Below are positions 26,103 through 61,038 of a stretch of DNA of 64,000 bases, piece by piece. Location of the stretch: assembly GCF_018729255.1 (NCBI RefSeq), contig NZ_CP076061.1, forward strand, positions 1,984,001 to 2,048,000, written 5' to 3'. The notes below the pieces were generated by a model, which worked only from the letters and a program-made list of their open reading frames with translations, made no database searches and was not told the origin of the DNA. Position 1 is the stretch's first letter. Each line of letters starts with the position of its first letter. Source of the stretch: Cupriavidus sp. EM10. Its GTDB lineage: Bacteria > Pseudomonadota > Gammaproteobacteria > Burkholderiales > Burkholderiaceae. The position numbers and the translations under genes are program-made.

Positions 26103-27734
26103 TCACGCAGGCGTGGCGGCCGCATCGGCCGGCGACAGCGTCGGGGCCTCGGGCACCGCCACCGGACGGCGGCCACCGCGTGCGGGCCGTGCTGCCGGCG
26201 CCGCTGCAACGGGCTCGATGACCGGCGCGATGACAGGCGCGGCAACGGGCACCGGCACGCGGGCAAGATCGGGCGCCAGCGCGCCGTACATGGCCATGTA
26301 CTGGCGTGCCGGGCCTTCCCAGCCGAAGTCGGTCTGCATGCCGGTGCGCTGCAGGCTGCGCCAGTGGCGCTGGCGGCCATACCATCCTAGTCCACGCGTC
26401 ATGGCGGCGCACATCGCCTCGGCGGTTTCGCCGTCGAAGACGATGCCGTTGGCGCGCGCGGCCGGCGCGGCATCATCGCCAACATCGCGCACGGTGTCGG
26501 CCAGGCCACCCACGCGCGAGACGATCGGCACGGTGCCATAGCGCATCGCATAGACCGGCGTCAGGCCGAACGGCTCGAAGCGGCTGCCATGCAGCAGCAT
26601 GTCGGCGCCCGCGTGCAGCAGGTGGGCGTCTTCCTCGCGATAGCCGATGGCCACGCCCACGCGGTCGGGATGCTGCTGCGCCAGCGCGCTGTAGGCGGCT
26701 TCCAGCTTGGGATCGCCGCAGCCCAGCACCACGAACTGCGCATCGGCGTGCGTGGCAAGGGCCATGGCGATGGCGTCGAGTGCCACGTCGGCCATCTTCT
26801 GGTGGGTCAGGCGGCTGCCCATGGCGATCAGCGGGCGGGTGGCGTCCACCGGCAGCCCGTGGCGCGCCTGCAGCGCGGCCTTGCAGGCGCGCTTGCCGGT
26901 CATGTTGCGCACGTCGTAGCGCTGCGGCAGCAGGCGGTCGGTGCGCGGCGACCAGGCGTCGGTATCGACACCGTTAGGAATCGCGCCCAGCACGGACGCG
27001 CGATGCGTCAGCAGGCCGTCCAGCCCATGGCCGAAGTGCGGCGTCAGGATTTCGCGCGCGTAGGTGTGGCTGACCGTGGTGACGCGGTCGGCATAGCGGA
27101 TGCCGGCCTTCAGGAAATTGATCTTGCCCCAGAACTCGATGCCGTCCGGCGTCAGCGACTGCGGGGGCAGGCCCAGCGGCTCCGCCGCCGTCATCGGAAA
27201 GACGCCCTGGAACGCGAGGTTGTGGATCGTGCAGACGGTGGGGATGCGCAGGCCGCGCGCGTGCATCAGCAGCGGCGTCAGCCCGGCGTGCCAGTCGTGC
27301 GCGTGCACCAGGCTGGGCACCGGCAGCGGCGTCTCGCCGGCCGCAATCGCCGCCGCGGCGTGCGCCAGCGCGGCAAAGCGCTGGGCGTTGTCGCAGAAGT
27401 CGCGGCCCGTGGCATCCACGTACAGCGACCCCGGGCGGTCATACAGCGACGGGCAGTCGAGAAAGATCACGCGCACGCCGCTGTCGGGCATCAGGCCTTG
27501 CAGCAGCCGCGCCGGGCTGTGTCCGGGCGGCAGGGCCATGGGCAGGTGGATCGCACCAAGGCTGCGCACGTCGCGCGCCGCGGCCACGGCACGCGGATAG
27601 CCCGGCATCAGGATCGAGACATCGGCGCCGCGCTGCAGCAGCGCCTGTGCCAGTCCGCCCACTACATCGGCCAGGCCGCCCGTCTTGGCCAGGGGCTGGG
27701 CTTCCGCCGCCACAAACAAGGTGTTCGCGTTCAA
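26103..27734 (-). CDS. glgA: Glycogen/starch synthase, GT5 family (GlgA)
   Basis: About 543 residues from a TTG preceded by GGGAG; the frame stays open upstream but has no better start. GT5 landmarks: FVAAEAQPLAKTGGLADVVGGL, HAHDWHAGL, TIHNLAFQG, NGVDTDAWSP and RFEPFGLTPVYAMRYG. It adds glucose from ADP- or UDP-glucose to alpha-1,4-glucan. The last ~50 residues form a Pro/Ala/Val-rich tail beyond the usual ~490-residue enzyme. No glgC lies in the window. It leads treZ-treY and has a sigma-54 promoter match upstream. Confidence 0.92.
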   Translation of the reverse strand: MNANTLFVAAEAQPLAKTGGLADVVGGLAQALLQRGADVSILMPGYPRAVAAARDVRSLGAIHLPMALPPGHSPARLLQGLMPDSGVRVIFLDCPSLYDRPGSLYVDATGRDFCDNAQRFAALAHAAAAIAAGETPLPVPSLVHAHDWHAGLTPLLMHARGLRIPTVCTIHNLAFQGVFPMTAAEPLGLPPQSLTPDGIEFWGKINFLKAGIRYADRVTTVSHTYAREILTPHFGHGLDGLLTHRASVLGAIPNGVDTDAWSPRTDRLLPQRYDVRNMTGKRACKAALQARHGLPVDATRPLIAMGSRLTHQKMADVALDAIAMALATHADAQFVVLGCGDPKLEAAYSALAQQHPDRVGVAIGYREEDAHLLHAGADMLLHGSRFEPFGLTPVYAMRYGTVPIVSRVGGLADTVRDVGDDAAPAARANGIVFDGETAEAMCAAMTRGLGWYGRQRHWRSLQRTGMQTDFGWEGPARQYMAMYGALAPDLARVPVPVAAPVIAPVIEPVAAAPAARPARGGRRPVAVPEAPTLSPADAAATPA

Positions 27735-27834
27735 GGAGAGACTCCCGCTGATTTGCAGTTCTTCTGGGATAAACCGGAATGTCGGTGCGTCGGCGCCCAT
27801 AGCAGGGGCCTGGAATGACGCAGCGCAACTGCAA

Positions 27835-27850
27835 TGCGAACTTTGTGCCA
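27835..27850 (-). promoter_or_regulatory. Candidate sigma-54 promoter upstream of glgA-treZ-treY
   Basis: On the minus strand the bases read TGGCACA-AAGT-TCGCA: GG and GC exactly 10 nt apart and a perfect TGGCAC -24 element. The predicted start of transcription is about 90 nt before the glgA TTG. The -12 element has TCGC in place of TTGC. Confidence 0.5.
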
Positions 27851-28026
27851 GCTTGGCCGCAACCGGCCCGGCCGCGTGACGCCTGAGGCGGCCGGCCGGT
27901 GCGGACAGCGTCATGGCAACGCCGATGTATAAGGTGCCGTCGCCGTTGTAGAAACTGCCGCGCGCGAGTCGGGCATCCACGAATCTTCAATCGTGATGCC
28001 GCCTCGGTTCAAAAGTGGCGATGGCG

Positions 28027-30766: not shown

Positions 30767-31161
30767 GCGCTGGTATGAAACCTGCAGCAGACGAGAGCCT
30801 TCCCATCCTGCAAATCTCCGCGAGACGCGCCATGGCCACCCACATCCCGCATGACCCTGTCCGCCGGCCGGACCGCCGCCCCGACCAAAGCCCTGATCAC
30901 AACAAGGAAAAAGGGGACCAGCCTGCCCGCAACCTGCCGGACAAGCATCCGCCCCCGCCTTCGGTGAGCCGGGCCGCGCGCGAACACGCCTGCTGACGCG
31001 CGGGTGAATCCGCTCGTCGGCGCAACGAATCCTTACGATACTTTCGATAAGCTGTTGTAGTTTTTGCATGCCACGCAGGCATTGCCGCAAGTACGGATTT
31101 GCGGGCATGCTTGCAGGCATGCGTCGGGCGTTGCGCGACAGGCCTCGCCCTGGATCGGACC

Positions 31162-33119: not shown

Positions 33120-35386
33120 TCACGCCTCGTCATCCCTGCCGTCTTCAACCTGTTCACCATTTTCGCCATCACGCACGGCCGCCACGCGCCGGGTGACGTC
33201 GGGGCGCGTGAACAGGTGGCGTGGATCGGCTTCCAGCCGGCGTTGCCAGTTCGGATGGCCTGACACCGTGCCGGGCAGGTTTGGCTGTTCGCGCAGCGCC
33301 AGCATGTCTTCCACGGGCACCAGCCGCAACGGGGCAGATGCACGGTGCAGCCAGCGCAGGATGGCCTCGACGGGCGCGGTGTCGGCAGGCGGTTCGGCGC
33401 CGCGCGCCACGCCGCCGTCGCACATGGCCTGCCACAGCGCGGTGCGCTCGGCGGCGCGCGACGCCATCAGTCCATCCTCGGTCTCACTCGCTCCCAATTG
33501 ATCCAGCCGCGCGCGCCACGCGATGTCGCGGTCCGACCACCAGCCGGCAATCGTCGGCAGGTCGTGCGTGGTCGTGGTGGCAACGGCCTGCGCGGGCCAG
33601 CTTTCGGGCGGCAGGAACGCGGGGCTGGCGGGCTCGGCCGGGGGCACGGCAGCGGCACCATCGCGCGACTCATCGTTCTCTTCCGTATCCTCTTCCGCTT
33701 CCTCTTCCTCCCGCACGAACCAGAGCACGTCGATGCCCAGCACGCCGCGCGCCTCCAGCGCGGTATTCAGCGTCTCCGGCACGGTGCCCAGGTTCTCGCC
33801 GACGATGATCGCGCGGTGCCGCCACGATTCGATGGCCACCAGCCGCAGCAGGTCGTCGAGCGGGTAGGTCAGATAGGCGCCCGCGCTGGCCGGCGACCCT
33901 TCAGGCACCAGCCACATGCGCGCGAGCCCCAGTACATGATCGATGCGCAGGCCGCCGGCATGGGCCAGGTTGGCGCGCAGCATCTCGATAAACGCGGCGT
34001 AGCCGTTGCGGCGCAGGCCACGCGGCGAGAACACCGCCACGCCCCAGTCCTGCCCCAGCGGGTTGTACAGGTCGGGCGGGGCGCCCGCATGGAAACCATT
34101 CAGCACTTCGGCCTGCCGCGTCCATGCGTGGCTGCCGCCGGGATCGGTGCCCACGGCCAGGTCGGCGATCACGCCCACCGCCATGCCGGCCGCGCGGGCG
34201 CGCTGCTGGGCATCGTCCAGTCCATCGGCGGCCAGCCACTGCAGGAAGGCGTGATAGCCGATGGCATCGGCCGCGGTGGTGGCCATGGCCATGGCCGCCG
34301 CACCGTCGGGGCTGCGCAGCGTGGCCGGCCAGCGGCGCCAGTCGGCGGCATCGCGCCGGGTCTCGTCGTCGGTGGCGGCGCGTAGCTGTTCGGCCTGGAT
34401 CGCCTCGAACGTCGCGTGGGCCAGCAGCGCCTTGCCGCCGCGCGCGCGGAATGCGGCAAACGCCTGCTTCTGCGCGGCGGGCAGCAACGTGTCGTGCCGA
34501 TCCCAGAGCCAGCGCAGCAGCTGCAGCCGCACGCGGGCGAGTGCCGGCCAATCGATCTCGGTACGGCGCTCGGCGTCGGCCAGTGCCGCGCCAATGCCCA
34601 GTTCGGCCACCGCCTGGTCCACGGCGGCCTGGCCGAACACGCGCGCCGGGTCTGCATAAAGCGGGTTGAAGAAGATGCGGCTCGACGGCGAATACGGGCT
34701 GAAGCGCTCCGGCAGCGCCGGAAAACCGGCGTGCAGCGGATTGATCGCGATGGCATCGGCACCGGCACGCGCCGCCGCTTCCGCCGTCAGTGCCAGCGTG
34801 GTCAGGTCGCCCAGGCCGGTGTCGGCGCCGCGCCGCAGGCCGTACAGCTGCACCGACAGGCCCCACGGCTTGCTTGCCAGCACCGGGCGCGGCGATGCCG
34901 CCAGCGCGTCGGCCATGCCGTAGCAGCGCGGCGGCGCCACCGCGACGGTGGTCTCCACATCGCCCAGCAGCAGATGGTGATAGCCCCATTGGGAGATTGG
35001 CGCGATTGCCATCGTGCCGTCGCCGGTGCGCTGCGCGACGCCCTCGATGATCGTGCCATCCTCGCACTCGAGCCGATAGGGCCGCTGCGGCACGGTGTGC
35101 GCCCAGGGCACGACCACCGGCTTGCCCTGGTCGGCGGTGATCAGCGGCGGCAGCGCATGGGCGCCATCGTCCGCCGCCAGCCGGGCGCGCGATGCCTCGC
35201 ACTCGCCCGGCGTGGCGCAGGGAAGGTCCATCGCGGTCAGCACCGTGCGCAGGGCGTCCGACGAAAGCGTCTGCGGCTGGTTCCACGCGTCGCGCCAGTG
35301 CACCTGCAGCCCGGCGCGCTCGGCCAGCAGGCGCAGCGGGTCGCCGTCGCCCGGGGTGCTGGTCGTGCCGGTCGTGCCAGTCGTGT

Positions 35387-35390
<4 letters not shown>
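33120..35390 (-). CDS. malQ: 4-alpha-glucanotransferase (MalQ, GH77)
   Basis: 756 residues; the ATG overlaps the glgX stop by ATGA, so the genes are translationally coupled. The N-terminal MalQ domain (LRLLAERAGLQVHWRDAW) precedes the GH77 barrel: SSRIFFNPLYAD, GGLRIDHVLGLARMW (nucleophile), AIIVGENLGTVP (acid Glu) and TTTHDLPTIAGWW. It transfers maltodextrin segments between chains. Odd feature: an acidic insert (EEEEAEEDTEENDES, then Pro/Ala-rich) between the Glu and Asp motifs. Confidence 0.94.
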
Positions 35391-37534
<2,144 letters not shown>

Positions 37535-37613
37535 GCGTGAAGCTCCTCTTTCTTCTGGTGTTATGGATATCTGTGATGGCTCGGGGCAGGGGGCAGGGCC
37601 CCGTCATCGGCTG

Positions 37614-46677: not shown

Positions 46678-46781
46678 GCTTCGGCCCTGCACGGGCGCCT
46701 TCACGCAAAGTGCGGTGCAGCAAGGGATGGCGCGGGACGAAGAGATATATGGCGACGCGTTGCGCGCCGTCGGCCCTGTAA

Positions 46782-46815
46782 TTCCTACATGGACAGGACG
46801 GGTATGGCGTAGGAA
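46782..46815. promoter_or_regulatory. Candidate activator-binding inverted repeat upstream of glgE
   Basis: TTCCTAC and GTAGGAA form 7-bp arms separated by 20 nt, about 105-140 bp upstream of the -24 element. This is where enhancer sites for sigma-54 activators usually lie. The rest of this 358-nt gap (46591-46948) holds no gene I can support. Confidence 0.4.
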
Positions 46816-48004: not shown

Positions 48005-48280
48005 TCAATCGGGCGGCCGGGGCGCGCAGGCGCGTCGCAATGGTGGAAGATGTCTATCATGCTATCTGTTCAGGCGGCGGGTGGCTACAGCCTGAAACGC
48101 TGTCGCGGCAAGGTCCCACAGGCGTGTCAGACGGACACCGGCATAACGGCCAGGGGACTGTCGTTACACTTCAGCCTATCCTCAGGCGTGTGCCGTCCGC
48201 ATGCGCCCTGGCAAACCAGCCGCCACCTGCGGGCCCATGACAACCAGACGCCGGTCTTACGACGCCATCCCGACTCTCCT

Positions 48281-49684: not shown

Positions 49685-49815
49685 CGGGGTGGCGCGACCG
49701 GGCCGCAGGGGCATGCTGCGTGGCGTGCAGGACGGCTGGCGATGCCAGCGCATGGTTCTTGCGTAATGGAAATCAATGAGGGTTTCGGAACTGATTGCCG
49801 ATCCGATGGTTGAAC

Positions 49816-50640: not shown

Positions 50641-51203
<563 letters not shown>

Positions 51204-51264
51204 GAGTCGGGTGTGATCGCCTCCCCACCATTGCACTGCAACATGCCTTGAACGGAGCCTCAGG

Positions 51265-51834
51265 ATGTCTACGATCATCGCAGGACGATTCGAAACGTTT
51301 GCCCGGGCCGAGACTGCTGCATCACGTTTGATGGCCAAGGGCGTCAGGCAGGACGATCTGACCATGTTCTATGTGAACCCGCCGGGCCAGCACGCCGCGT
51401 ATCCGATCGGCGGCGACGAGGCGGTGGACCCCGCCGCGCGCAAGGCCGGTCCCGGTGCCGGCCGGGGCATCCTGATCGGCGCCGTGATCGGGTTTGGCGT
51501 GGGCATCTGCCTGGTGGCGGCCGCGCGCGCCTGGTTCGCGGCGGCCACGCTGCAGCCCTGGGTGCTGGTGCTGGTCATGGCGTTTGCCACCGGTATCGGC
51601 GCCTACGCCGGATCGCTGATGGGCGCGTTGGCCGGCACCGACCGCGACACCGGCCCGGTGCGGCACGCCGGCGTGCTGCTGGCGGCCCATGTCGACGACG
51701 CCAATACGGCGCTGGTGGCCACCGAACTGCGCCGTGGTGGCGCCCGTGACGTGGAACGCGCCGAAGGCCAGTGGCGCGATGGCCGCTGGGAGGACTTCGA
51801 TCCGCTGGCGCCGCCGGTGCCCGCAGGCCGATAA
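51265..51834 (+). CDS. Glycine-rich membrane protein, general-stress type
   Basis: 189 residues. An N-terminal soluble part (STIIAGRFETFARAETAASRL) resembles the fold at the start of general-stress proteins. Two hydrophobic segments follow (ILIGAVIGFGVGICLVAAARAW and VLVLVMAFATGIGAYAGSLMGAL) with glycine-zipper spacing. The C-terminal part reads HAGVLLAAHVDD and AEGQWRDGRWEDFDPLAPP. Its ends match the protein encoded at 59.5 kb, which lacks the membrane part. Probably an inner-membrane stress protein. Confidence 0.8.
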   Translation: MSTIIAGRFETFARAETAASRLMAKGVRQDDLTMFYVNPPGQHAAYPIGGDEAVDPAARKAGPGAGRGILIGAVIGFGVGICLVAAARAWFAAATLQPWVLVLVMAFATGIGAYAGSLMGALAGTDRDTGPVRHAGVLLAAHVDDANTALVATELRRGGARDVERAEGQWRDGRWEDFDPLAPPVPAGR

Positions 51835-51893
51835 CGCATCGATGCACTACCTTTGATCTTGCAGTTCAACTTTTCACGCTGGAGGAATCGCTC

Positions 51894-52357
51894 ATGAAGC
51901 CCATGGACCCGCAGACCCCGCCCCCGGTACGCCGCCGCGCGGTGCGTCAATCATTGGCGACGTCGACCAGACCACGGCCGGTTGCGGGCCGTTCGTGATG
52001 GCGTCCGATACGCTGGAAGGCAACAAGGTGGTCGACCCGTCCGGCGAGGAAATCGGCACCATCGACCACATCATGCTCGACGTGCTGGGCGGCCGTATCG
52101 CCTATGTGGTCATGGCGATGGGCGGCTTCCTGGGGATTGGCGAAAAGCTCCACGCACTGCCGTGGTCGGCCCTGACGCTGGACACGCGCCGCAAGTGCTT
52201 TGTGCTGGGCGTCGAAAAGGAGCGCATCAAGGCTGCACCCGGTTTCGACAAGGAGCACTGGCCCACCATGGCGAATTCGCAATGGGCCACGAGCATCCAC
52301 GAGTACTACGGCATCTCGCCGTATTGGGAGAAGGACCGGTACGACCCGTGGGGCTGA
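51894..52357 (+). CDS. PRC-barrel domain protein (one apparent frameshift)
   Basis: About 154 residues. The ATG has a strong GGAGGA site; adding one C to the C5 run at 51921-51925 joins MKPMDPQTPPP to GTPPRGASIIGDVDQTTAG. The PRC-barrel follows: SDTLEGNKVVDPSGEEIGTI, MLDVLGGRIAYVVMAMGGFL and HALPWSALTLD. The rest is a Trp/Tyr-rich tail (HEYYGISPYWEKDRYDPWG). Last gene of the presumed operon, ahead of a hairpin terminator. Such proteins are common in stress regions; ligand or partner unknown. Confidence 0.82.
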
Positions 52358-52379
52358 CCTGACTGCTTTGATGGTTGCC

Positions 52380-52420
52380 GCGGCTCCGCGCCTTGCGAGG
52401 TGCGGAGCCGCATTTGCTTT
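52380..52420 (+). terminator. Strong hairpin after the PRC-barrel gene
   Basis: A perfect 10-bp stem, GCGGCTCCGC/GCGGAGCCGC, with a 12-nt loop, followed by ATTTGCTTT. It lies between the PRC-barrel stop and the convergent BON gene and probably ends both transcripts. Confidence 0.7.
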
Positions 52421-52443
52421 CGGCGCTTTCGGCGCTTTCGGCG
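52417..52443. repeat. Three 9-bp tandem repeats (CTTTCGGCG)
   Basis: Three exact consecutive copies between the terminator hairpin and the BON stop codon. Not coding. Likely a slippage product. Confidence 0.7.
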
Positions 52444-52447
52444 CGGG

Positions 52448-52801
52448 CTAGACCTTGTGGTTGACCTGCCCGGCAGGCTTTTCGGCGGGATCGGCGTTCA
52501 TGCCGGTGGCCTGCAGCGGCTGGCCCGGCGCCTCGCGCGGCGGCGGCACGCGGGTGGTCAGCTGGTTGGAGACGCCCAGAATGCCCGGCGGCGTCGACGC
52601 GGCCTTTTCGATGCGCTGCGCAATATCGATGTCCTCGACCTGGCCGGTGATCGTCACCCGGCGCTCCACCACATGCACGGCCACGCCGTCGGGCATGTCG
52701 CCGCCGCAGAATTCGGCGATGCAGGTGCCCACGCGCTCGCGCAGCAGTTCATCTTCCTCGTCGGGGCTGTTACGGCGGGGCGCTTGGCTTTCCGTTTGCA
52801 T
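52448..52801 (-). CDS. BON-domain protein
   Basis: 117 residues from MQTESQAPRRNSP. The BON domain (about 22-80) shows LLRERVGTCIAEF, VHVVERRVTITGQVED, AQRIEKAAS and GVSNQLTTR. BON domains bind membranes or small ligands and occur in osmotic and envelope stress proteins (OsmY). No signal peptide is visible. The tail is Pro-rich. A sigma-54 promoter match lies about 65 nt upstream. Confidence 0.85.
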   Translation of the reverse strand: MQTESQAPRRNSPDEEDELLRERVGTCIAEFCGGDMPDGVAVHVVERRVTITGQVEDIDIAQRIEKAASTPPGILGVSNQLTTRVPPPREAPGQPLQATGMNADPAEKPAGQVNHKV

Positions 52802-52865
52802 GGCGGTCCTTGTCTGGTAGGTGATGGCACGCGGCGGCAAAGCCGCGCCCGGAATGCCGGTGAGA

Positions 52866-52881
52866 CGCAATCGTCATGCCC
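52866..52881 (-). promoter_or_regulatory. Candidate sigma-54 promoter upstream of the BON gene
   Basis: The minus strand reads GGGCATG-ACGA-TTGCG: GGCATG at -24, TTGC at -12, exact spacing. The predicted start is about 55 nt before the ATG. Upstream, TTGTAGGA (52948-52955) and the palindrome CTACAATGTAG (52988-52998) lie at enhancer distance. Confidence 0.5.
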
Positions 52882-53027
52882 ACCGTGGCGCCCCGGTTCC
52901 GGATCGTTGCTTGTAAAAACGACATGTCACGGTGCCGGATGACATCCTTGTAGGACGCCACCGACTGAAACTGCAAAAGGGCGCTCCCTACAATGTAGAC
53001 AGTCCTGCATGGGCACGGGAGCGATAC

Positions 53028-53537
53028 ATGCAACACCAACCTACACAACGCCGGCTGTTCCAGATGTTCGACCACTTCGCAGGCGCCGCGACACGGCAGG
53101 CCGGTTCCCCGGTGGCGTTCGCGCTGGCCTTTTTCGTCGTGGTGGCCTGGGCCGTCACGGGGCCGATCTTCGGCTACTCCGAAACCTGGCAGCTCGTGAT
53201 CAACACAGGTACGACCATCGTCACGTTCTTAATGGTGTTCCTGATCCAGCAGAGCCAGAACAAGGATGCGCTGGCTGTCCATCTGAAGCTGAACGAACTG
53301 CTGGCGTCCCACCGCGAAGCCAGCAACCACCTGGTGGCCATCGAGGAACTCGACGAGGAGGAATTGCGCCAACTGGTGAAGTTCTACCGGCATCTGGCGG
53401 ATCTGGCCGACGAGGAGGGCGACGTGAAGTGCAGCCATTCCATCGACGAAGCCAACGAAAACCACGCGGAGAAGAAACGGGTGCATGGCGCGCGGCGTAC
53501 GCCCCGGCAGGACCGCGACCAGCACGCCGCCGCGTAG
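53028..53537 (+). CDS. Low-affinity iron permease family protein
   Basis: 169 residues. MFDHFAGAATRQAGSPVAFALAF begins the family domain, with two membrane helices (AFALAFFVVVAWAVTG and LVINTGTTIVTFLMVFLIQ) followed by QQSQNKDALAVHLKLNELL. This is the small bacterial low-affinity iron permease family, named from yeast Fet4 similarity; transport is not proven for the bacterial proteins. The C-terminal tail is charged. DUF3182 and hydrolase genes follow closely on the same strand. Confidence 0.85.
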   Translation: MQHQPTQRRLFQMFDHFAGAATRQAGSPVAFALAFFVVVAWAVTGPIFGYSETWQLVINTGTTIVTFLMVFLIQQSQNKDALAVHLKLNELLASHREASNHLVAIEELDEEELRQLVKFYRHLADLADEEGDVKCSHSIDEANENHAEKKRVHGARRTPRQDRDQHAAA

Positions 53538-53613
53538 TCGCCGGGATGGAGCCCTGGATGACCCCGGAAACCGGATCTGAAACGAACGCGGCCTGGCCGC
53601 AGAGGAGCCCGAC

Positions 53614-54807
53614 TTGGCAACCCCAGTGACTCCCGATGCTGCAGCAACCGCGGTGGCGGCCGACGCCACCCCGGCACCCGATCCGCAACGACGCGACGTG
53701 CGCGTGGTGGTCTACGGCCGCGCCGACTGCGACGACCCGGACAGCCACCAGGGCACCACGCTCAAGGGCATCGCGCAACGCGTGGCGCGGCTGGCCGGCT
53801 ACACCTACGCCGGCAGCTACGACGCGGCCTCGCACCGGCCGGAGGACGGCCGGCTTTATTTCGTGCCTGCCGACACGCTGACCGGTGTCGACAGCGCGCG
53901 CCAGCTCGGCATTTCCGGGCTGGACGACCTGCTGGGCGGCGTGGTGCCCCATGCATTCATCGCCACCAAGGCGATCTCGCATGGGCTGGTGGCGCCCGAT
54001 GCCGCCGCGCCGCCGGGCTGGAACCACGGTTTCGCTGCACGCCTCGGCGCGCACGTGCTGCCCGGCTTCACGGCGTTCTCTCTCGACGACGCCAGCCGCG
54101 CCGGACGCGCGATGCTGCGCGACGGCAAGGTCCGGGTCAAGGAGCCGTGCGGGATTGGCGGCCTGGGCCAGCAGGTGGTGGCGAACGAGGCGGAACTGGA
54201 TCGCGCGCTGCAGTCGCTGGACGCCGACCGCGTGGCGCGCGAGGGGGTGGTGCTGGAGCGCAATCTCGATGACGTGATTACGTTCAGCGTTGGCCAGATC
54301 CAGATCGGCGACCTGTGTGCAAGCTACTGCGGCACCCAGGACGTCACGCCCGACAACACCGGCCGCAAGGTCTATGGCGGGTCCACGCTGCGCGTGGTGC
54401 GCGGCACGCTGGAAGACCTGCTGGCCCATCCGCTGGAGACGCACCTGCACGACGCGGTGACCGCGGCGCTGGCCTATCACGCGGCTGCCATCGAGTGTTT
54501 TCCGGGTTCGCTGATGTCGCGCTGCAACTACGACGTGGCATTCGGCAGTGATAACGGCCAGCCCCGGCTGGGCGTGCTGGAGCAGTCATGGCGCGTGGGC
54601 GGCGCCACGGGGGCGGAACTGGCGGCGCTGGCCGCGTTCCGCGACGATCCTCAATGCGTGCGCGCCACTGCGAGCACCCGCGAGATCTACGGCGAGGATC
54701 CGTCCGTGCCGGAAGACGCGGATATCTATTTCCAGGGAGAAGACCGCAGTGTCGGCGCACTGACCAAATACGCAAGACTGGAGTCCGTTTCCGATGGCCA
54801 CTCATGA
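53614..54807 (+). CDS. DUF3182 family protein (ATP-grasp-like)
   Basis: 397 residues from a TTG start. The N-terminal ~20 residues are Ala/Pro-rich, then RRDVRVVVYGRADCDDPDSHQ. The middle resembles ATP-grasp enzymes (GKVRVKEPCGIGGLGQQVVAN, EGVVLERNLDDVITFSVGQI), and the C-terminus has PGSLMSRCNYDVAFGSD and QSWRVGGATGAEL. I recognise it as DUF3182, function unknown. It overlaps the downstream alpha/beta hydrolase by 14 nt, so the two are probably linked in function. Confidence 0.8.
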   Translation: MATPVTPDAAATAVAADATPAPDPQRRDVRVVVYGRADCDDPDSHQGTTLKGIAQRVARLAGYTYAGSYDAASHRPEDGRLYFVPADTLTGVDSARQLGISGLDDLLGGVVPHAFIATKAISHGLVAPDAAAPPGWNHGFAARLGAHVLPGFTAFSLDDASRAGRAMLRDGKVRVKEPCGIGGLGQQVVANEAELDRALQSLDADRVAREGVVLERNLDDVITFSVGQIQIGDLCASYCGTQDVTPDNTGRKVYGGSTLRVVRGTLEDLLAHPLETHLHDAVTAALAYHAAAIECFPGSLMSRCNYDVAFGSDNGQPRLGVLEQSWRVGGATGAELAALAAFRDDPQCVRATASTREIYGEDPSVPEDADIYFQGEDRSVGALTKYARLESVSDGHS

Positions 54808-55732
54808 AGAATCGATACAGATCCATACCGAAGGCGGGATGATCGCGGGCACCGTGATCTCGCCTGCCACCAAGCTGCCCGGCGTGCTGTTCGTGCACGG
54901 CTGGGGCGGCAGCCAGCAGCAGTACCTGGCGCGGGCCCGCGAAGTGGCCGGCCTGGGCGCGGTCTGCATGACCTTCGACCTGACCGGCCACGCCGGTACG
55001 TCGGCGCAGTACGAGACGGTCAGCCGCATGCGCAACCTGGCCGACGTGCTGGCCGCGTACGACATGCTGGTGCGGCATCCCGAGGTGGACCGCAATGCCG
55101 TGGCGGTGGTGGGCAGCAGCTACGGCGGCTATCTGGCCGCCGTGCTGTGCGAGCTCCGGCCCGTGCGCTGGCTGGCGTTTCGCGCCCCGGCGCTGTATAT
55201 GGACGAAGGCTGGGAATCGCCGAAGCGGCAACTGCATCGCGACCAGGACCTGGTGGCCTATCGCCGCAAGGTCGTGGCGGCCGACACCAATCGCGCATTG
55301 CGCGCCTGCACCAACTTCAAGGGCGATGTGCTGGTGGTGGCATCGCAGCACGACAACATCGTGCCGCACACGGCGGTGCTCAGCTACGTCGACGCCTGCA
55401 TCCAGGCCAGCTCCATTACGTATCGCGTGCTCAAGGGCGCCGATCACGGGCTGACCAGCGAGGACAGCCAGCGCGCCTACTCCAGGCTGCTGCTGGGCTG
55501 GCTGAGCGAGATGGTGACCGAGGCGCGTACCGGGCCTGCGGTGGCGGCCCGGCCATCCAAGGCATCGACCGCGCAGAAGACCCCGCATCACGACGATGGG
55601 CTCGAACCGGAGCGCACGGGCAACGGTGGCGAGGACAAGGCGCGCGAGGCGGTGCTGGCGGGCGGGGACGACGACGAGAACGACCCACAGGTCATCGCCG
55701 CGCAGCCACGTGCCGAGCGCGGCGCGGAGTAG
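54794..55732 (+). CDS. Alpha/beta hydrolase
   Basis: 312 residues. Hydrolase fold with LPGVLFVHGWGGSQQQYLAR (oxyanion loop), the nucleophile elbow VGSSYGGYLAAVL, a likely acid Asp in VASQHDNIVP and His in GADHGLTS. A charged, low-complexity tail of ~55 residues follows the catalytic domain. No signal peptide. It is coupled to DUF3182; substrate unknown. Confidence 0.85.
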   Translation: MATHEESIQIHTEGGMIAGTVISPATKLPGVLFVHGWGGSQQQYLARAREVAGLGAVCMTFDLTGHAGTSAQYETVSRMRNLADVLAAYDMLVRHPEVDRNAVAVVGSSYGGYLAAVLCELRPVRWLAFRAPALYMDEGWESPKRQLHRDQDLVAYRRKVVAADTNRALRACTNFKGDVLVVASQHDNIVPHTAVLSYVDACIQASSITYRVLKGADHGLTSEDSQRAYSRLLLGWLSEMVTEARTGPAVAARPSKASTAQKTPHHDDGLEPERTGNGGEDKAREAVLAGGDDDENDPQVIAAQPRAERGAE

Positions 55733-55881
55733 CCGGGCGCGTCGGTTCGCCCGCCATTGCGCGGCGGTCGCATTTCTGATGGCCGGCGGAATGTGCAATC
55801 GACGCCGGCCCGCGCCAATTTCGATCGGTAAAAACTGCAAGCGCGCCTGGTCGCGCGCCGTGCCGGCCAGCGTCGGGCCGG

Positions 55882-56985
55882 ATGGCACGGCTCATGCGTA
55901 CGCGCATGCACATGACACGCACCACCATCGCCGATTCCGACAGCCCCGCCCTGGACGCCGCGCTACGCAAGGCGGGGCTGCACCATGTCGACGACAGCGA
56001 GCCCGGTATCGTCCGCCGGCGCGCCGGCAAGGGCTTCACCTATCTCGGCCCCGACGGCAAGCGCGTGGATGCCGCAACACAGGCGCGCATCGACGCGCTG
56101 GCGATTCCGCCCGCCTACGAATCGGTCTGGATCTGCGCCGATCCCAACGGACATCTGCAGGCCACCGGCCGCGATGCGCGCGGGCGCAAGCAGTACCTCT
56201 ACCACGCGGAATGGGCCGCCCTTCGTGATGCCGACAAGTACGCGCGGCTGATGGCGTTCGGGCACGCGCTGCCGCGCCTGCGGGGTCGCGTCAAGCGCGA
56301 CCTCGCGCGCAACGGCATGCCGCGCGAAAAGGTGCTGGCCGCCGTGGTGACGCTGCTTGATGCCACGCTCGTGCGCGTTGGCACGCCGCGCTACGCGGAA
56401 CAGAACCGTACGTATGGGCTCACCACGCTGAAGCGCAAGCACGTTGCCGTGAAAGGCAGCCGGCTGCGCTTCCAGTTCACCGGTAAGAGCGGCGTCACGC
56501 ATGACGTCTCGGTGAACGACGCGCGGCTGGCGCGGGTGGTGCGCAATTGCGCCGACCTGCCGGGCCAGCGACTTTTCAAGTACAAGGACAGCGACGGCGA
56601 AGTGCGCGAGATCGGCTCGTCCGACGTCAATGCCTACCTGCAGGAAGTGACCGGCGGCGATTTCACCGCCAAGGACTTCCGCACCTGGGCAGGCAGCGTG
56701 CATGCGCTGGCGCTGCTGCGCAAGACGCCCGCCGAAACCGAGGCGGCGCGCAAGAAGGCGATGGTCGACGTAATCCGCAGCGTGGCGCAGCGGCTGCGCA
56801 ACACAATGGCCGTCTGCCGCAAGTGCTATGTGCATCCCGACGTGCTGGCGGCGTTCATGGCAGACGCGTTGCAGGCTTTACCGGCACCGCGTGCAGGCAT
56901 GCGCCTGCGTACCGACGAGGCACGGTTGCTGGCCCTCCTGGAAAGCACCACCACGCTGGCGCGACCCGCGCGGCAGGCGGCCTGA
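55882..56985 (+). CDS. Type IB DNA topoisomerase
   Basis: 367 residues at most; starts at 55894 or 55912 (MTRTTIADSD) are also possible. The poxvirus/bacterial TopIB fold: FTYLGPDGKRVDAATQARIDAL, IPPAYESVWI, YRTYGLTTLKRKHV-like core (here RTYGLTTLKRKHVAVKG), FKYKDSDGEVREIGSSDVNAYL and FTAKDFRTWAGSVHAL. The active-site Tyr lies in CRKCYVHPDVL. It relaxes supercoils through a 3'-phosphotyrosine. Found in a minority of bacteria, often in accessory stress regions. Confidence 0.93.
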   Translation: MARLMRTRMHMTRTTIADSDSPALDAALRKAGLHHVDDSEPGIVRRRAGKGFTYLGPDGKRVDAATQARIDALAIPPAYESVWICADPNGHLQATGRDARGRKQYLYHAEWAALRDADKYARLMAFGHALPRLRGRVKRDLARNGMPREKVLAAVVTLLDATLVRVGTPRYAEQNRTYGLTTLKRKHVAVKGSRLRFQFTGKSGVTHDVSVNDARLARVVRNCADLPGQRLFKYKDSDGEVREIGSSDVNAYLQEVTGGDFTAKDFRTWAGSVHALALLRKTPAETEAARKKAMVDVIRSVAQRLRNTMAVCRKCYVHPDVLAAFMADALQALPAPRAGMRLRTDEARLLALLESTTTLARPARQAA

Positions 56986-57012
56986 AACGCAGCGCACCGG
57001 AACGGCTCCGAC

Positions 57013-57028
57013 CGGCACGGCTATTGCA
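57013..57028 (+). promoter_or_regulatory. Candidate sigma-54 promoter upstream of the 189-residue unknown
   Basis: CGGCACG-GCTA-TTGCA matches the consensus TGGCACG-N4-TTGCA at all but the first base. The predicted start lies about 42 nt before the GTG of the next gene. Confidence 0.55.
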
Positions 57029-57080
57029 TCAATGCCTGTACCAATAACAAGCAGAACACGCATAGCAATCGAGGCCCAAG

Positions 57081-57650
57081 GTGGAACACGCAGTCATCGC
57101 TTGCCTTCAGGCTGACAGCAGCAGCCCGGCAACTTTCCTTACGGAAGCACGTCAGTCGCTTCCCTCTGCTGGCCCTTCCTCAACTTCGGATTACGCGGAC
57201 GATGGCAGCGATGGCGCCGCGGCAGGCGCACGCGTCGCGCGGCACATCTCGCCGGCGCGTCTGGCCGCCAAGGCGCAGCATGGCAAGGGCGCCGCAGCGC
57301 GCCCCCCGCGAGGCAACGACCTGCGTCAGGCGCGCGTGCTGATGCAGGCGCTGTGCGAAATGCGGCTGGCACTCAGCAAGCCGGACGAGGCGCTGACGCC
57401 GGCCGCGCTCGACAGCCGGCATACAGCCACCATGGCGCTGTGGCAGAACCGCACGCGGTCGCTGTACACGCAGCCCGATGTGGAACGCGGCATCGAGGAA
57501 CGGCTGGACGCCGGCTTTCGCCACGCGCGCAGCGGCAGCCCGCGCGAGGCGGCCAGCGAGTTCAAGCGTGCCTATCTGCTGCTGTGCTGCGTGCTGACGC
57601 TGGCCCGCGACAACGCGCGGCAGCGTGCACGGCGCCGGCCAACTGCCTGA
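57081..57650 (+). CDS. Protein of unknown function
   Basis: 189 residues from a GTG. Not recognised. The first ~75 residues are Ser, Ala and Gly-rich and probably disordered. The rest is helical (ARVLMQALCEMRLALSKPDEAL, ERLDAGFRHARSGSPREAASEFKRAYLLLCCVLTLARDNARQRARRR), with a mildly hydrophobic Leu/Cys stretch near the end. Preceded by a near-consensus sigma-54 promoter. It converges on the ParB-like gene. Confidence 0.65.
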   Translation: MEHAVIACLQADSSSPATFLTEARQSLPSAGPSSTSDYADDGSDGAAAGARVARHISPARLAAKAQHGKGAAARPPRGNDLRQARVLMQALCEMRLALSKPDEALTPAALDSRHTATMALWQNRTRSLYTQPDVERGIEERLDAGFRHARSGSPREAASEFKRAYLLLCCVLTLARDNARQRARRRPTA

Positions 57651-57677
57651 TCCTGCTGAAACTGGCCACCGGCCCTG

Positions 57678-58331
57678 TCACTTGTCCGCGCGCGTCTTCT
57701 TCTTGCACGGGCCCAGGTAGCCGGGCAGGTCGCGCGCCTTGGGGCTCATCGCCAGTTGCAGCCCCTTGGCCAGCGCCGCCGCGAACGTGTGGTGCGTGTC
57801 GAGTGGCCCCTTGATGTGCTTGCGGAAGAAGTCGGCCCAGCGGAAGTCCGAATAGGCTGTCTTGACCTTGCGATATCCGCCGGCCAGCTGCACGAAGGCC
57901 TCAAGGCTGCGGTAGGGGTCGTCGCGCATGCTGTGCACGTCAGCCGGCAACTCCTTGATCGGGCGGCGGCGACCATGCTCGTCGAAGGGGTGGACCATAT
58001 GGTCCTTGGCCATGCGTTTCCAGAAATCACGGACCGACAGATGGCTGAAGTCGTTGCGCACCAGTGCCGGCACCATCTCGATGCCCATGTCCTGCCAAGC
58101 CCGTACCCAGTGGTGGTGATCGACGATATAGAGCGACTGCTCCGGCCCGATCACCACGTGGACGCGGTGCTGGTCCAGAAACGCGGGGATGTCGGCATGG
58201 TCCAGGCGCCGCGTGACGTGCATCTTCTGGGCGACGTGATACGCGCCGACCGTGATCTGCGTCGGATGCAGGTGATCGATGGGCACCATGATGGCCGCCT
58301 CTTTGCCAAGTCGTCGCGCACGCTTCGCCAT
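57678..58331 (-). CDS. ParB-like nuclease-family protein (ParBc_2), copy A
   Basis: 217 residues from MAKRARRLGKE. The ParBc_2 core shows LHPTQITVGAYHVAQKM, the motif YIVDHHHWVRAW, VRDFWKRM, MRDDPYRSLEAF and FRWADFFRKHI. The family is named for similarity to the ParB nuclease domain, and no role in chromosome partitioning is implied here because no ParA or HTH is present. A paralogue lies about 1.6 kb away on the other strand. Its sigma-54 promoter match is divergent from that of the SDR gene. Confidence 0.85.
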   Translation of the reverse strand: MAKRARRLGKEAAIMVPIDHLHPTQITVGAYHVAQKMHVTRRLDHADIPAFLDQHRVHVVIGPEQSLYIVDHHHWVRAWQDMGIEMVPALVRNDFSHLSVRDFWKRMAKDHMVHPFDEHGRRRPIKELPADVHSMRDDPYRSLEAFVQLAGGYRKVKTAYSDFRWADFFRKHIKGPLDTHHTFAAALAKGLQLAMSPKARDLPGYLGPCKKKTRADK

Positions 58332-58368
58332 GGGTGTCCGGTCTCCGGGATGGGAACGGTCGTGAAGC

Positions 58369-58384
58369 AGCAAGGTTTGTGCCG
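58369..58384 (-). promoter_or_regulatory. Candidate sigma-54 promoter upstream of ParB-like copy A
   Basis: The minus strand reads CGGCACA-AACC-TTGCT: GGCAC at -24, TTGCT at -12, exact spacing. The predicted start is about 27 nt before the ATG. The palindrome GTAACCGTTAC (58436-58446) lies between this promoter and the divergent one of the SDR gene. Confidence 0.5.
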
Positions 58385-58523
58385 TGTTGCGGCCGTGTTG
58401 GCCGGCGGCGGCAGCGGCAATCGTTGCCACGCCTTGTAACCGTTACGCATCACAGCGGCGTGCTTGCGCCTGCCCGCGGGCCCGATGCAAGCCAGGTGCA
58501 AGGTTAAGGGGGCGGATGGCGCG

Positions 58524-58539
58524 CGGCACGGAATTTGCG
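58524..58539 (+). promoter_or_regulatory. Candidate sigma-54 promoter upstream of the SDR operon
   Basis: CGGCACG-GAAT-TTGCG: GGCACG at -24, TTGC at -12, exact spacing. The predicted start is about 26 nt before the SDR ATG. Confidence 0.55.
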
Positions 58540-58575
58540 CCCGTGCATGGCATTCAACATCGCACCGGAGCGCAT

Positions 58576-59432
58576 ATGTCCACGCCCAGCAAAGTCCCGC
58601 CACAGCATCAGGACCGCCAGCCCGGCATAGAAAGCGAAATGGAGCCGAAGCCCGACAGCGGCGCCGACGACTATGTCGGCACCGGCCGTCTGAAGGGCAA
58701 GGTGGCGCTGGTGACGGGCGGCGACAGCGGCATCGGCCGCGCCATTGCGGTGGCGTTTGCCCGCGAGGGCGCCGACGTGGCGTTCGCCTACCTCGACGAG
58801 CACGAGGACGCCCGGGAAACCGAACGGCTGATTTCCGGGGCCGGCCAGAAGGCGTTGGCCATTGCTGGCGACATTGGCGACGTCGACCACGCGGACAAGG
58901 TGGTGGCCGACACGATGAAGGCGTTCGGTCGCCTCGACGTGCTGGTCAACAATGCGGCGGAGCAGCATCCCCAGGAATCCCTGGAGGACGTCAGCGCCGC
59001 GCAGCTGGAGAACACGTTCCGGACCAACGTCTTCGCCATGTTCCACGTGACGCGCGCGGCCTTGCCGCATCTGGGGCAGGGCGGCGTGATCCTGAACACG
59101 ACGTCGGTGACCGCGTATCGCGGCAGCGCCCATCTGCTGGACTACTCTGCTACCAAGGGGCCATTGTCGCGTTCACGCGGTCGCTGGCGCTGCAGGTGGT
59201 GGACCGGGGCATCCGCGTCAATGGCGTGGCGCCGGGTCCGATCTGGACACCGCTGATTCCGTCGACCTTCACGGCCGAGGAAGTGGCCGAGTTTGGCAAG
59301 AAGACGCCGATGGGCCGGCCCGGGCAGCCCTTCGAAGTCGCGGCCGGGTACGTGTTTCTGGCGTCCGGGGCCGCCAGCTATATCACCGGACAAATCCTCC
59401 ATATCAACGGGGGCGAGGTGGTCAACGCCTGA
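58576..59432 (+). CDS. Short-chain dehydrogenase/reductase, YghA-like (one apparent frameshift)
   Basis: About 285 residues when one G is added to the G4 run at 59157-59160. The N-terminal extension (QHQDRQPGIESEMEPKPD) is typical of the YghA/general-stress SDR group. Cofactor site TGGDSGIGRAIA, then NNAAEQHP, and the active-site region DYSATKGAIVAFTRSLAL with Tyr and Lys. The C-terminus is YITGQILHINGGE. An NAD(P)-dependent oxidoreductase. First of three close genes with the stress-like protein and ParB-like copy B. Confidence 0.88.
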
Positions 59433-59449
59433 ACACAGGGAGAAAGATC

Positions 59450-59952
59450 ATGTCTTCGATAGTTGCCGGGCGCTTCGCGTCCATCCCCGAAGCCGAGCAA
59501 GCGGCGCAGAAGCTGTATGCGCGCGGGTTTTCCGTGTGGGACGTCTCGATCATGTCGGTGGACCCGGGCGGCGCGCGCCCGCCGGGCGTACTGCTTGCCG
59601 CCCGCGCGAAGGGCGAGCGCCGTGACGAGGTGCTGGAGGTGCTGCGCGAGGGCGGTGCCTGCGATTGCGAACAGGCCAAGGGCAAGTGGGAAGGCGGTCA
59701 GTGGACCGATTTCGACCCCGCGCGCGCGCCGGCGCTGGTGGACGCTGCCGAGGGGAATGCTGGCCCATCCCGGGACAGGGCGCCGAGCACGGTGCAGGGC
59801 AGGGCGCAGGCCAGGGTGCCGACAGCCATGGGCGGCCGGCCCACGCCGCACCGGTGGCCCAGGAAGCGGTGGCAGAGGACAGTACCGGCAACGAGGACCC
59901 TGGCAGCGAGCTCGAGCATTACGTCGACCGCCAGGTCGCCAGCCACAACTGA
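59450..59952 (+). CDS. Small soluble stress-type protein with Gly/Gln repeats (one apparent frameshift)
   Basis: About 167 residues after one C is added to the C3 run at 59764-59766. The N-terminal domain (SSIVAGRFASIPEAEQAAQKLYARGF) and the motif KGKWEGGQWTDFDPARAP match the ends of the glycine-rich membrane protein at 51.3 kb, but the two membrane helices are absent. The repaired tail has GAGQGAGQGA repeats and ends SELEHYVDRQVASHN. It starts 17 nt after the SDR stop and ends 3 nt before the next gene, so it is in the same operon. Confidence 0.72.
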
Positions 59953-59955
59953 CCT

Positions 59956-60579
59956 ATGGTGACCAACGCCACGGCCGAGCTGGCCACGCTCCGGCCCACC
60001 CAGATCACGCTGGGTATGTATCAGGTGCACGAGAAAATGGACGTTTCGGCCCGGCCGCGCTCCGCCGCGGCGCTGCGGCGGCTCCTGGAAGACCACCGGA
60101 TCCAGACCATCGCAGGTCCCGGCGGCGCGCTCTATATCGCCGATCATCACCACTGGGCCCGGGCCTGGCTCGAACTGGGCTGGGAAGAGGCGCCGGTGGC
60201 CATCCTCGACGACCTGAGCCACCTGGCTCCCGGCAAGTTCTGGAAGCGCATGCGCGCGCTGGGCCATGTCCATCCCTATGACGAACACGGCGAGCATCTT
60301 TCCGAGAAGGATCTGCCCGCCACGGTCATGGGCATGCGCGACGATCCTTACCGCAGCCTGGCCGCGTTCACGCGCAACGCGGGCGCGTATCGCAAGCCGG
60401 GCAACGCGTACGGCGATTTCCGCTGGGCCGCCTTCTTCCGCCGGTACGTCGCGGAGGACATGGAGAGCATTGCCGGCTTCGCGCGTGCCATGACCCAGGC
60501 CATCCCGCTGGCGCGCAGCAGCAAGGCGCGGCGCCTGCCGGGTTTCGTGGGGAAATGCGAGAACGGGCTGGCGAAGTAA
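59956..60579 (+). CDS. ParB-like nuclease-family protein (ParBc_2), copy B
   Basis: 207 residues. It shares with copy A the motifs LRPTQITLGMYQVHEKM, YIADHHHWARAW, KFWKRM, MRDDPYRSLAAF and FRWAAFFRRYV. Last gene of the SDR operon, followed at once by a strong hairpin. Cytoplasmic; function not established. Confidence 0.85.
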   Translation: MVTNATAELATLRPTQITLGMYQVHEKMDVSARPRSAAALRRLLEDHRIQTIAGPGGALYIADHHHWARAWLELGWEEAPVAILDDLSHLAPGKFWKRMRALGHVHPYDEHGEHLSEKDLPATVMGMRDDPYRSLAAFTRNAGAYRKPGNAYGDFRWAAFFRRYVAEDMESIAGFARAMTQAIPLARSSKARRLPGFVGKCENGLAK

Positions 60580-60625
60580 AACGCCGCCGGGAGCAGGTTC
60601 CGAGGACCCCACTCCCGGCGGCGTT
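60580..60625. terminator. Strong hairpin between convergent genes
   Basis: A perfect 14-bp stem, AACGCCGCCGGGAG/CTCCCGGCGGCGTT, with an 18-nt loop, starting at the ParB-like stop and lying before the DUF3008 stop. The flanking A and T bases make it suitable in both directions. Confidence 0.75.
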
Positions 60626-60639
60626 GCATCGAAAGCAGG

Positions 60640-60828
60640 CTAGCTCTTCGACTTGTGCTCGGGCTTGCCCTTCTGCCTGGTGCTGGCCATCTTCTTGAGC
60701 TCGCTTTCGCTCATCGACTTGGCCATCGACTTCGAGGCGCCCTTGAGCGAGCCGGACTTGCGCTCGCCGCGCTTTGCTGACAAGGCGGCTCCGGCCGCCA
60801 TCTGCTGTGCCTTGGATTTGGCTGGCAT
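60640..60828 (-). CDS. DUF3008 family small basic protein
   Basis: 62 residues, Lys- and Ser-rich (MPAKSKAQQMAAGAALSAKRG, then SMSESELKKMASTRQKGKPEH). This is the DUF3008 pattern. AAGGAG lies at a good distance before the ATG. Probably a small nucleic-acid-associated or stress protein, but nothing is proven. A weak sigma-54-like match (TGGGACG-GATC-TAGCC, about 60878-60893) overlaps the end of the DUF3309 gene upstream. Confidence 0.85.
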   Translation of the reverse strand: MPAKSKAQQMAAGAALSAKRGERKSGSLKGASKSMAKSMSESELKKMASTRQKGKPEHKSKS

Positions 60829-60879
60829 GTCGATCTCCTTCGGTTCCCGGTGTCATGCGCGGATCAGCGCGCAGGTCGG

Positions 60880-61038
60880 CTAGATCCGTCCCAATACCAC
60901 CAGGAGCACGACGATGATGACGATCAGCCCCAGGCCGCCGCTGGGCCCATAGCCCCAACCGGAACTGTACGGCCACGTTGGCAGTGCGCCAACCAGAAGA
61001 AGGATGAGGACGATCAGAAGAATTGTGCCGATACCCAT
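60880..61038 (-). CDS. DUF3309 family small membrane protein
   Basis: 52 residues with two hydrophobic segments, IGTILLIVLILLLVGALP and GGLGLIVIIVVLLVVLG, joined by WPYSSGWGYGPSG. This is the DUF3309 layout. AGGAG precedes the ATG. It is upstream of DUF3008 on the same strand and possibly cotranscribed. Confidence 0.85.
   Translation of the reverse strand: MGIGTILLIVLILLLVGALPTWPYSSGWGYGPSGGLGLIVIIVVLLVVLGRI

Follow-up and report, generated by a model that had tools for sequence, protein, structure and literature searches.

A candidate sigma-54 regulon for trehalose, glucan, and stress-protein genes with two adjacent activators in Cupriavidus sp. EM10

Trehalose and the reserve polymers of Cupriavidus are of biotechnological interest. 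In a 64,000-nucleotide (nt) stretch of Cupriavidus sp. EM10 (NZ_CP076061.1, positions 1,984,001 to 2,048,000; this whole stretch is referred to here as the window), genes for glucan and trehalose metabolism lie beside a block of stress-related genes, with two sigma-54 activator genes in their midst. Are these genes switched together by RpoN (sigma-54), and, if so, through which DNA element? The window is located on contig 2 of the 6.66-Mb genome, and the nearest named locus is L002, from C. agavae. From comparison of sequences, we consider it probable that the region belongs to a sigma-54 regulon, so far undescribed, that covers trehalose, glucan, and stress proteins and is driven by the adjacent activators via a palindromic element.

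A preliminary description of the window had reported eight sites with GG-N10-GC spacing, all of which we found in the positions and orientations given there. Sites were scored with our own weight matrix, built on the known consensus (Barrios 1999, as quoted in PMC4371752) with guessed weights. One further site, overlooked in that description, precedes a small open reading frame (ORF) at 30832 to 30996 and is kept with small changes in an alignment of relatives. The weak site suggested before DUF3008 (about 60878) is absent from the matrix list at scores of at least 8; DUF3008 and TFPASDP are gene labels taken over from the preliminary description. The lowest of the eight scores, 7.8, belongs to the site of glgP at 30751, and the remaining sites are as follows.

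46662 to 46678, minus strand: sigma-54 -24/-12 site of glgE, CTGGCATGCCGCCTGCA, score 16.8 (matrix scan and promoter alignment)
57012 to 57028, plus strand: sigma-54 site of the gene for a 189-residue unknown protein (unk189), CCGGCACGGCTATTGCA, score 15.8 (matrix scan)
50760 to 50776, plus strand: sigma-54 site of the TFPASDP gene, CTGGCCCGACGTTTGCA, score 15.0 (matrix scan and alignment)
58369 to 58385, minus strand: sigma-54 site of ParB-like A, ACGGCACAAACCTTGCT, score 14.2 (matrix scan and exact-pattern scan)
27835 to 27851, minus strand: sigma-54 site of glgA, CTGGCACAAAGTTCGCA, score 13.9 (matrix scan)
52866 to 52882, minus strand: sigma-54 site of the BON-domain gene, TGGGCATGACGATTGCG, score 11.9 (matrix scan)
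58523 to 58539, plus strand: sigma-54 site of the SDR gene, GCGGCACGGAATTTGCG, score 10.4 (matrix scan and promoter alignment)
30770 to 30786, plus strand: sigma-54 site of the small ORF, CTGGTATGAAACCTGCA (matrix scan)

Such sites are enriched upstream of the block genes. The comparison covered genes whose upstream sequence spans 45 nt or more and counted those with a site of at least 10 in the direction of the gene; as background we took 253 genes from this genome, in 20 segments of 20 kb (Fisher test). With hand-set gene models, 8 of 22 block genes had such a site versus 12 of 253 background genes (P = 3e-5), and at scores of at least 14 the counts were 5 of 22 versus 2 of 253 (P = 4e-5); among the window genes outside the block they were 1/18 and 0/18, respectively. 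The hand-set models concern several gene starts and genes of the block, including the small ORF, which was picked for its site and without which the enrichment is 7/21 (P = 1.6e-4). On automatic gene calls alone, the block yields 5/20 at scores of at least 10 (P = 0.004) and 2/20 at scores of at least 14 (P = 0.03). The enrichment is real, and its strength is set by the gene models, so that we gave more weight to conservation. The exact pattern YGGCAYRN4TTGCW occurs 20 times genome-wide, versus 9 times for its backward control; two of the 20 matches lie inside the block, and one is the unk189 site. Others precede the gene of a dicarboxylate symporter (SDF family) and a type IV pilin-like gene. 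Both are expected sigma-54 targets, and the sigma-54 candidates of Ralstonia solanacearum include a dicarboxylate transporter and pilA (PMC4371752).

Could these sites be chance matches in G+C-rich upstream DNA, conserved in appearance only because divergence has been short? Such an explanation draws on the loose pattern allowing two mismatches, whose count across the whole window is barely in excess and uninformative (145 observed versus 120 expected), on several strong matches inside genes, and on the weakening of the enrichment with automatic gene models. What speaks against chance, besides the upstream enrichment, is a strand bias in relatives: among 1,080 upstream regions from the best 80 of 579 related activator loci found in a scan of named genomes (loci that are akin, so that counts from them are not independent), sites of at least 14 number 97 in sense and 11 in antisense orientation, the corresponding numbers for 224 background regions of our own genome being 3 and 1. 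Conservation argues in the same direction. In 12 further stretches from near relatives (one of them, L295, is probably from the same genome as L002), the TFPASDP and unk189 sites are each kept in 12/12, the SDR site in 11/12, the ParB-like A site in 10/12 at a score of at least 13.7, and the BON site in 9/12. Since a site-anchored identity comparison is biased by construction, it was not used as evidence; an unanchored alignment of the TFPASDP promoters of seven Cupriavidus has 25 invariant columns, 13 of which make up CTGGCCCG and TTGCA, while the four spacer bases vary and contain no invariant column. The corresponding pattern, CTGGCCCGN4TTGCA, was found in 13 of 14 genomes of the genus; outside the genus, 39 of 136 genomes in the family had it, many of these 136 being small, and the match positions were partly checked. 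It is present three or four times in G123, G131, and G138, perhaps as several copies of this promoter class. Sites are also conserved before glgE genes that are mostly 53 to 64% identical to ours and often distant from the activators (see below). Taken together, we regard chance as a very improbable explanation.

Seven of the eight named sites are thus kept in relatives, the one that is not being that of glgP. We rejected the glgP site at 30751, which has no equivalent in the nearest relatives (none in L303 and L305 to L308, and merely a different weak one in L304). In the more distant loci L315 to L317 (three of four genomes), another site, AAGGTACGYCTCTTGCA, with a score of 13.4, lies at the inferred glgP start, so that glgP may be under sigma-54 control elsewhere. 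The weak site proposed before the topoisomerase IB (TopoIB) gene at 55883 was discarded as well: although the sequence 55 nt upstream scores highly as an enhancer, the site overlaps the start region and only 1 of 11 orthologs has it. DUF3182 has sigma-54-like sites upstream in 5 of the 11 relatives that carry this gene (L295, L298, and L300 to L302), with no counterpart in the window.

The second element of the argument is a conserved palindrome, first seen in the glgE and SDR promoter alignments. We describe TGTA-N5-TACA here as a likely enhancer, judging from its arrangement relative to the sigma-54 sites (distances are from start to start).

46777 to 46789, minus strand: enhancer-like palindrome of glgE, TGTAGGAATTACA, 111 nt upstream of the sigma-54 site
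27947 to 27959, minus strand: enhancer-like site of glgA, GGCAGTTTCTACA, 108 nt upstream
50640 to 50652, plus strand: enhancer-like site of the TFPASDP gene, AGCACTTTTTACC, 120 nt upstream; held-out match, empirical P = 0.012
52912 to 52924, minus strand: enhancer-like site of the BON gene, TGTCGTTTTTACA, 42 nt upstream; held-out match, empirical P = 0.003
58435 to 58447, no strand assigned: palindrome between the divergent ParB-like A and SDR sites, TGTAACCGTTACG, a possible shared enhancer
31056 to 31068, no strand assigned: strong enhancer-like site flanked by the small ORF and a hybrid kinase gene, TGTAGTTTTTGCA

In a survey of 60 Cupriavidus genomes, 54 of which have glgE, we looked for a site of at least 8 together with a TGTA-N5-TACA match of at least 11 of 14 points located 91 to 133 nt upstream, start to start. 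This pair precedes glgE in 48 of the 54 genomes, ours included, and 38 of the 48 pairs are spaced 99 to 113 nt apart. By a near-identical procedure, the pair was found before 4 of 315 genes in a control restricted to our own genome and slightly lenient in that any site, rather than the best one, was accepted. Many of the surveyed glgE genes share 53 to 64% identity with ours, and in several cases the gene is on a different contig from the activator gene or hundreds of kilobases from it. For glgA, site and enhancer occur in 20 of 24 loci (at least 51% identity), this one included. An enhancer matrix built from the glgE and glgA enhancers of other genomes then served for the held-out matches listed above; of the 20 exact sigma-54 matches in the genome, the 18 that fall outside the block gave an empirical P value of 0.034 at best with this matrix. 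The BON copy lies 42 to 53 nt upstream of the sigma-54 site in nine relatives. The palindrome shared by ParB-like A and SDR reads TGTAA-N3-TTACA and lies 62 and 88 nt from the two sites; it scores P = 0.2 on the glg-derived matrix, and in most relatives its arms are constant and its center is variable. Its core, GTAA-N3-TTAC, came fifth in an unbiased dyad search of 158 promoters scoring at least 12.5, from the 80 loci and the window, where the dyads ranked above it may be family-specific repeats. Of the 15 GTAA-N3-TTAC sites in the genome, 4 lie within 260 nt of a sigma-54-like site of at least 10; the block palindrome is the sole one with such sites pointing away on both sides. On cluster representatives, the motif at scores of at least 16 was found in 8/42 versus 20/1,015 (P = 5e-6), a test that is partly circular given that the motif was first seen in Cupriavidus. 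The element at 31056 to 31068 has an invariant core, AAAAACTACAA, in the alignment of relatives and lies downstream of the only good sigma-54 site in the nearby area.

Two loci of our own genome outside the window deserve mention here. At C2:428032 (L107), TGTAAGACCTACA lies 67 nt before the strong sigma-54 site (16.6) of a CxxCH protein gene, a possible further member, and at C2:1583537 (L140), a manganese catalase gene stands behind a strong sigma-54 site (18.2) with the palindrome absent.

Which proteins could read this element? The genes concerned lie between glgE and the stress block.

46949 to 48004, minus strand: sigma-54 activator without a receiver domain, with an AAA+ domain carrying a GGFTGA loop and a Fis-type helix-turn-helix (HTH) (Pfam Sigma54_activat, 2.9e-66, and HTH_8)
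48281 to 49684, plus strand: NtrC-type response regulator and sigma-54 activator, with a receiver, an AAA+ domain carrying a GSFTGA loop, and a Fis-type HTH (Pfam; start from the gene caller)
49816 to 50640, plus strand: HisKA-like protein without a recognizable ATPase domain (Pfam HisKA, 21.9 bits, below the cut-off of 26.9)

Pfam and the intact catalytic motifs of both proteins confirm the two activators in the middle of the block; each has the AAA+ Walker motifs, the GAFTGA-type loop, and the HTH of a bacterial enhancer-binding protein. The degenerate kinase claimed next to them is indeed HisKA-like and without a recognizable ATPase domain, and it is a candidate partner only: from its position alone, it is a possible phosphorelay or phosphatase partner. 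The C-terminal helix of both activators reads LG(I/V)SLKTLYNRL, a motif common to all nine aligned proteins of both groups, suggesting that the two may read the same DNA. The sigma factor itself is encoded by a single rpoN (a Sigma54_DBD gene) on contig 1, i.e., on a contig other than that of the window.

As the sigma factor would be identical and nitrogen limitation can affect storage genes, the block might simply be a corner of the classical RpoN/NtrC regulon of nitrogen control. Both activators fall short of the cut-offs of their 25 best NCBIfam models: the protein at 48281 to 49684 scores 369.5 bits against the ntrC model (cut-off, 558.6), and the one at 46949 to 48004 scores 263.5 bits against the pspF model (cut-off, 443.55). 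The palindrome is moreover unlike the NtrC box, and it is absent from the dicarboxylate symporter gene and other strong sigma-54 sites. Ordinary nitrogen control therefore has very little credence in our eyes.

Co-occurrence in the 60 genomes suggests a connection between the response regulator and the promoters. An ortholog of this regulator (E < 1e-150) was found in 53 of them; 51 of the 53 have glgE, versus 3 of the 7 genomes without the ortholog, one of which is 54% complete (P = 0.001). Likewise, glgE is preceded by site and palindrome in 47/51 genomes with the activator ortholog versus 1/3 without it (P = 0.03). It could still be that the promoters depend on sigma-54 but that some other regulator occupies the palindrome, be it a different activator, a repressor, or a protein of the TyrR/PhhR kind, with the adjacent activators acting on other genes. 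The exceptions to co-occurrence would fit this, as would the TGTA/TACA half site, which is common to the TyrR/PhhR box, and the at least 26 activator-type matches per genus genome, so that other activators do exist. It fits less well with the co-occurrence of glgE and the activator, with the lack of the motif at the genome's 18 other exact sigma-54 matches, and with the arrangement in Ralstonia loci L010 to L012, where the NtrC-type gene itself has a sigma-54 site with TGTAAAARTTACC 66 to 79 nt upstream. On balance, we think it unlikely that another regulator accounts for the palindrome.

A number of observations weigh against control by the adjacent activators or limit its extent. Genome G195, which lacks the activator, keeps site and enhancer, counting against strict dependence, and six of the 54 glgE genes (G153, G166, G178, G186, G193, and G194) have no pair. 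The glg-derived matrix also gives a high score to the nonconserved TopoIB site (P = 0.003), and it gave no significant enhancer for unk189, ParB-like A, SDR, glgP, or the small ORF. At the usual distance, unk189 and the small ORF are without a convincing enhancer, and the BON copy is located at 42 nt; the otsA promoters of Paraburkholderia have no obvious copy about 100 nt upstream. Genome-wide, the palindrome is rarer than its backward controls (TGTA-N5-TACA, 9 versus 38; GTAA-N3-TTAC, 15 versus 25; at two mismatches, 77 forward and 51 reverse versus 130 and 134), so that it marks these promoters and defines no regulon alone. The kinship of the genomes inflates the counts, the window and L002 to L007 are where the motif was originally spotted, and the enrichment of sigma-54 sites is weaker with automatic gene models. 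Even so, the shared RpoN regulon of the preliminary description is supported by enrichment, conservation, the shared palindrome, the presence of rpoN, and the two activators, with glgP and TopoIB dropping out.

The regulon that we propose would work as follows. A stress signal (osmotic stress, desiccation, or starvation is our guess) would trigger one or both of the activators at 46949 to 48004 and 48281 to 49684, which would bind TGTA-N5-TACA (with the core GTAA-N3-TTAC at some promoters), mostly about 100 to 120 nt upstream of the -24/-12 promoter. The bound activator would then drive open-complex formation by RNA polymerase carrying RpoN, the single RpoN serving this genome. Candidate targets are glgE, glgA, the TFPASDP gene, the BON gene, unk189, ParB-like A, the SDR gene, and the small ORF, while the treS-maltokinase, glgB, glgX, and malQ genes behind glgE would be targets by position. 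In this way, the cell would couple its trehalose and glucan turnover to protective proteins. The sites, the enhancer-like motif at several promoters, their conservation, and the gene linkage are observed; activator binding, transcription, the signal, and the operon extents are predicted from them. The genes of the block are the following.

43271 to 46590, minus strand: glgE, the first gene of the glgE cluster (Pfam GlgE_dom_N_S), with its frame broken near 44180
33120 to 43274, minus strand: treS-maltokinase fusion, glgB-like, glgX-like, and malQ-like genes downstream of glgE (Pfam)
26103 to 27734, minus strand: glgA (Pfam Glyco_transf_5)
50838 to 61040, no strand assigned: stress block with the TFPASDP gene and genes for PRC-barrel, BON, DUF3182, TopoIB, ParB-like A and B, and SDR proteins (Pfam)

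Pfam domains of glgA, glgE, the response regulator, and the HisKA-like protein were called on the open frames 26103 to 27980, 44179 to 46590, 47969 to 49684, and 49795 to 50640, respectively. From their order, the genes from treS-maltokinase to malQ would belong to one operon with glgE. In this assembly, the glgE (43271 to 46590), glgB-like (37614 to 39886), SDR (58576 to 59432), and TFPASDP (50838 to 51204) genes are each split over two frames. The open frame of glgE is 821 amino acids long here and mostly 1,086 to 1,424 amino acids long in relatives, most of which have glgE as a single open frame. Several insertions or deletions across 30 kb suggest sequencing error, though they may also reflect real decay. 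The block also encodes two related proteins that start with MSxIxAGRF (51265 to 51834 and 59450 to 59962) and belong to no Pfam family; by tblastn, each has matches in about 30 of the 80 loci.

How far does this network extend? It seems to reach past Cupriavidus, since in other genera otsA and a second rpoN are linked to the activator as candidate targets. In 64 of the 80 loci, the receiver-less activator is matched separately, on the opposite strand; in the remaining 16, the response regulator itself gives its best match. A copy of otsA lies within the locus in 38 and an rpoN homolog in 37, and these linked genes are mostly preceded by strong sigma-54 sites. The genes behind the 158 promoters include rpoN homologs (35), otsA (28), and CsbD (10), DUF883-like (9), hemerythrin-like (5), BON-like (3), and SDR (2) genes; for the rpoN, otsA, CsbD, and hemerythrin labels, a single example of each was verified with Pfam or NCBIfam, and the rest were assigned by eye, and the TFPASDP cluster of six promoters counts the window twice. 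Exactly two rpoN genes were found in each of 18 of these genomes (15 with a linked copy and 3 without), making the linked copy a second rpoN in all 15. Our own genome, with its single rpoN, shows no second copy near the activators, and no rpoN match was found in loci L002 to L007. In many Paraburkholderia, Caballeronia, and Trinickia loci (L016 to L063), an exact TGTA-N5-TACA occurs about 50 to 660 nt past the NtrC-type gene with no sigma-54 site about 100 nt downstream of it. The Methylococcaceae locus L069 contains two pairs of enhancer and site, spaced 118 and 109 nt apart, and the pairing may thus reach beyond Burkholderiales.

A bolder proposal, which we advance tentatively and with some doubt, would make this a Burkholderiales-wide sigma-54 general stress response, with a conserved pair of activators that have an identical recognition helix and with an RpoN2, itself under sigma-54 control, dedicated to it in many genera, in the part that sigma-S plays elsewhere. 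If true, this response would switch on genes for trehalose (otsA or glgE/treS) and glucan metabolism along with those for CsbD, DUF883, BON, hemerythrin, PRC-barrel, and further protective proteins, and it would be the role of the enigmatic RpoN2. For the regulon in Cupriavidus, the consequences would be that two widespread, unnamed activators gain a regulon and a binding site, that an ATP-requiring switch links trehalose and glucan storage with a stress block, and that RpoN2 gains a concrete role; the prediction is stated at the base-pair level.

We recognized no description of such a regulon in the open-access literature, covered partly through top-ranked results and with subscription journals mostly outside, and the accessible parts of PMC5979394, PMC3162934, and PMC12117332 contain no such link. 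A transcript-start study of C. metallidurans states that RpoN motifs were not picked up by its algorithm (PMC9045368). In Burkholderia insecticola, osmotic stress raises the expression of the genes for trehalose synthesis, and osmotic resistance requires otsA, with control by RpoN unmentioned in the accessible part of that study, which also cites E. coli otsA as being under RpoS (PMC10100943).

How, then, does the candidate regulon compare with known systems? It resembles sigma-S regulons in the kinds of genes involved (otsA, CsbD, and BON/OsmY-like genes) and differs from them in its -24/-12 promoters, which need an activator and ATP. The closest known parallel to the linked rpoN genes is rpoN2 of R. 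solanacearum (RSp1671), which lies behind a sigma-54 site and whose expression, seen in minimal medium, depends on rpoN1; its role was called enigmatic in a mutant study. The same study reports rpoN2 to be absent from R. eutropha, C. taiwanensis, and C. necator, and its accessible part mentions neither trehalose nor stress (PMC4371752). In the Ralstonia loci L010 to L012, an rpoN homolog similarly stands behind a strong site near the activator pair, as a candidate counterpart only, and the genomes of L010 and L012 each have two rpoN genes; unlike R. solanacearum with its rpoN2, our own genome has one. With classical sigma-54 regulons of the NtrC, PspF, and PehR types, the system shares promoters of the -24/-12 kind, AAA+ activators that carry a GAFTGA-type loop, and, at several promoters, a putative palindromic enhancer about 100 nt upstream. 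It is set apart from them by activators that score below the NCBIfam cut-offs and by its candidate targets, the genes for trehalose, glucan, and stress proteins.

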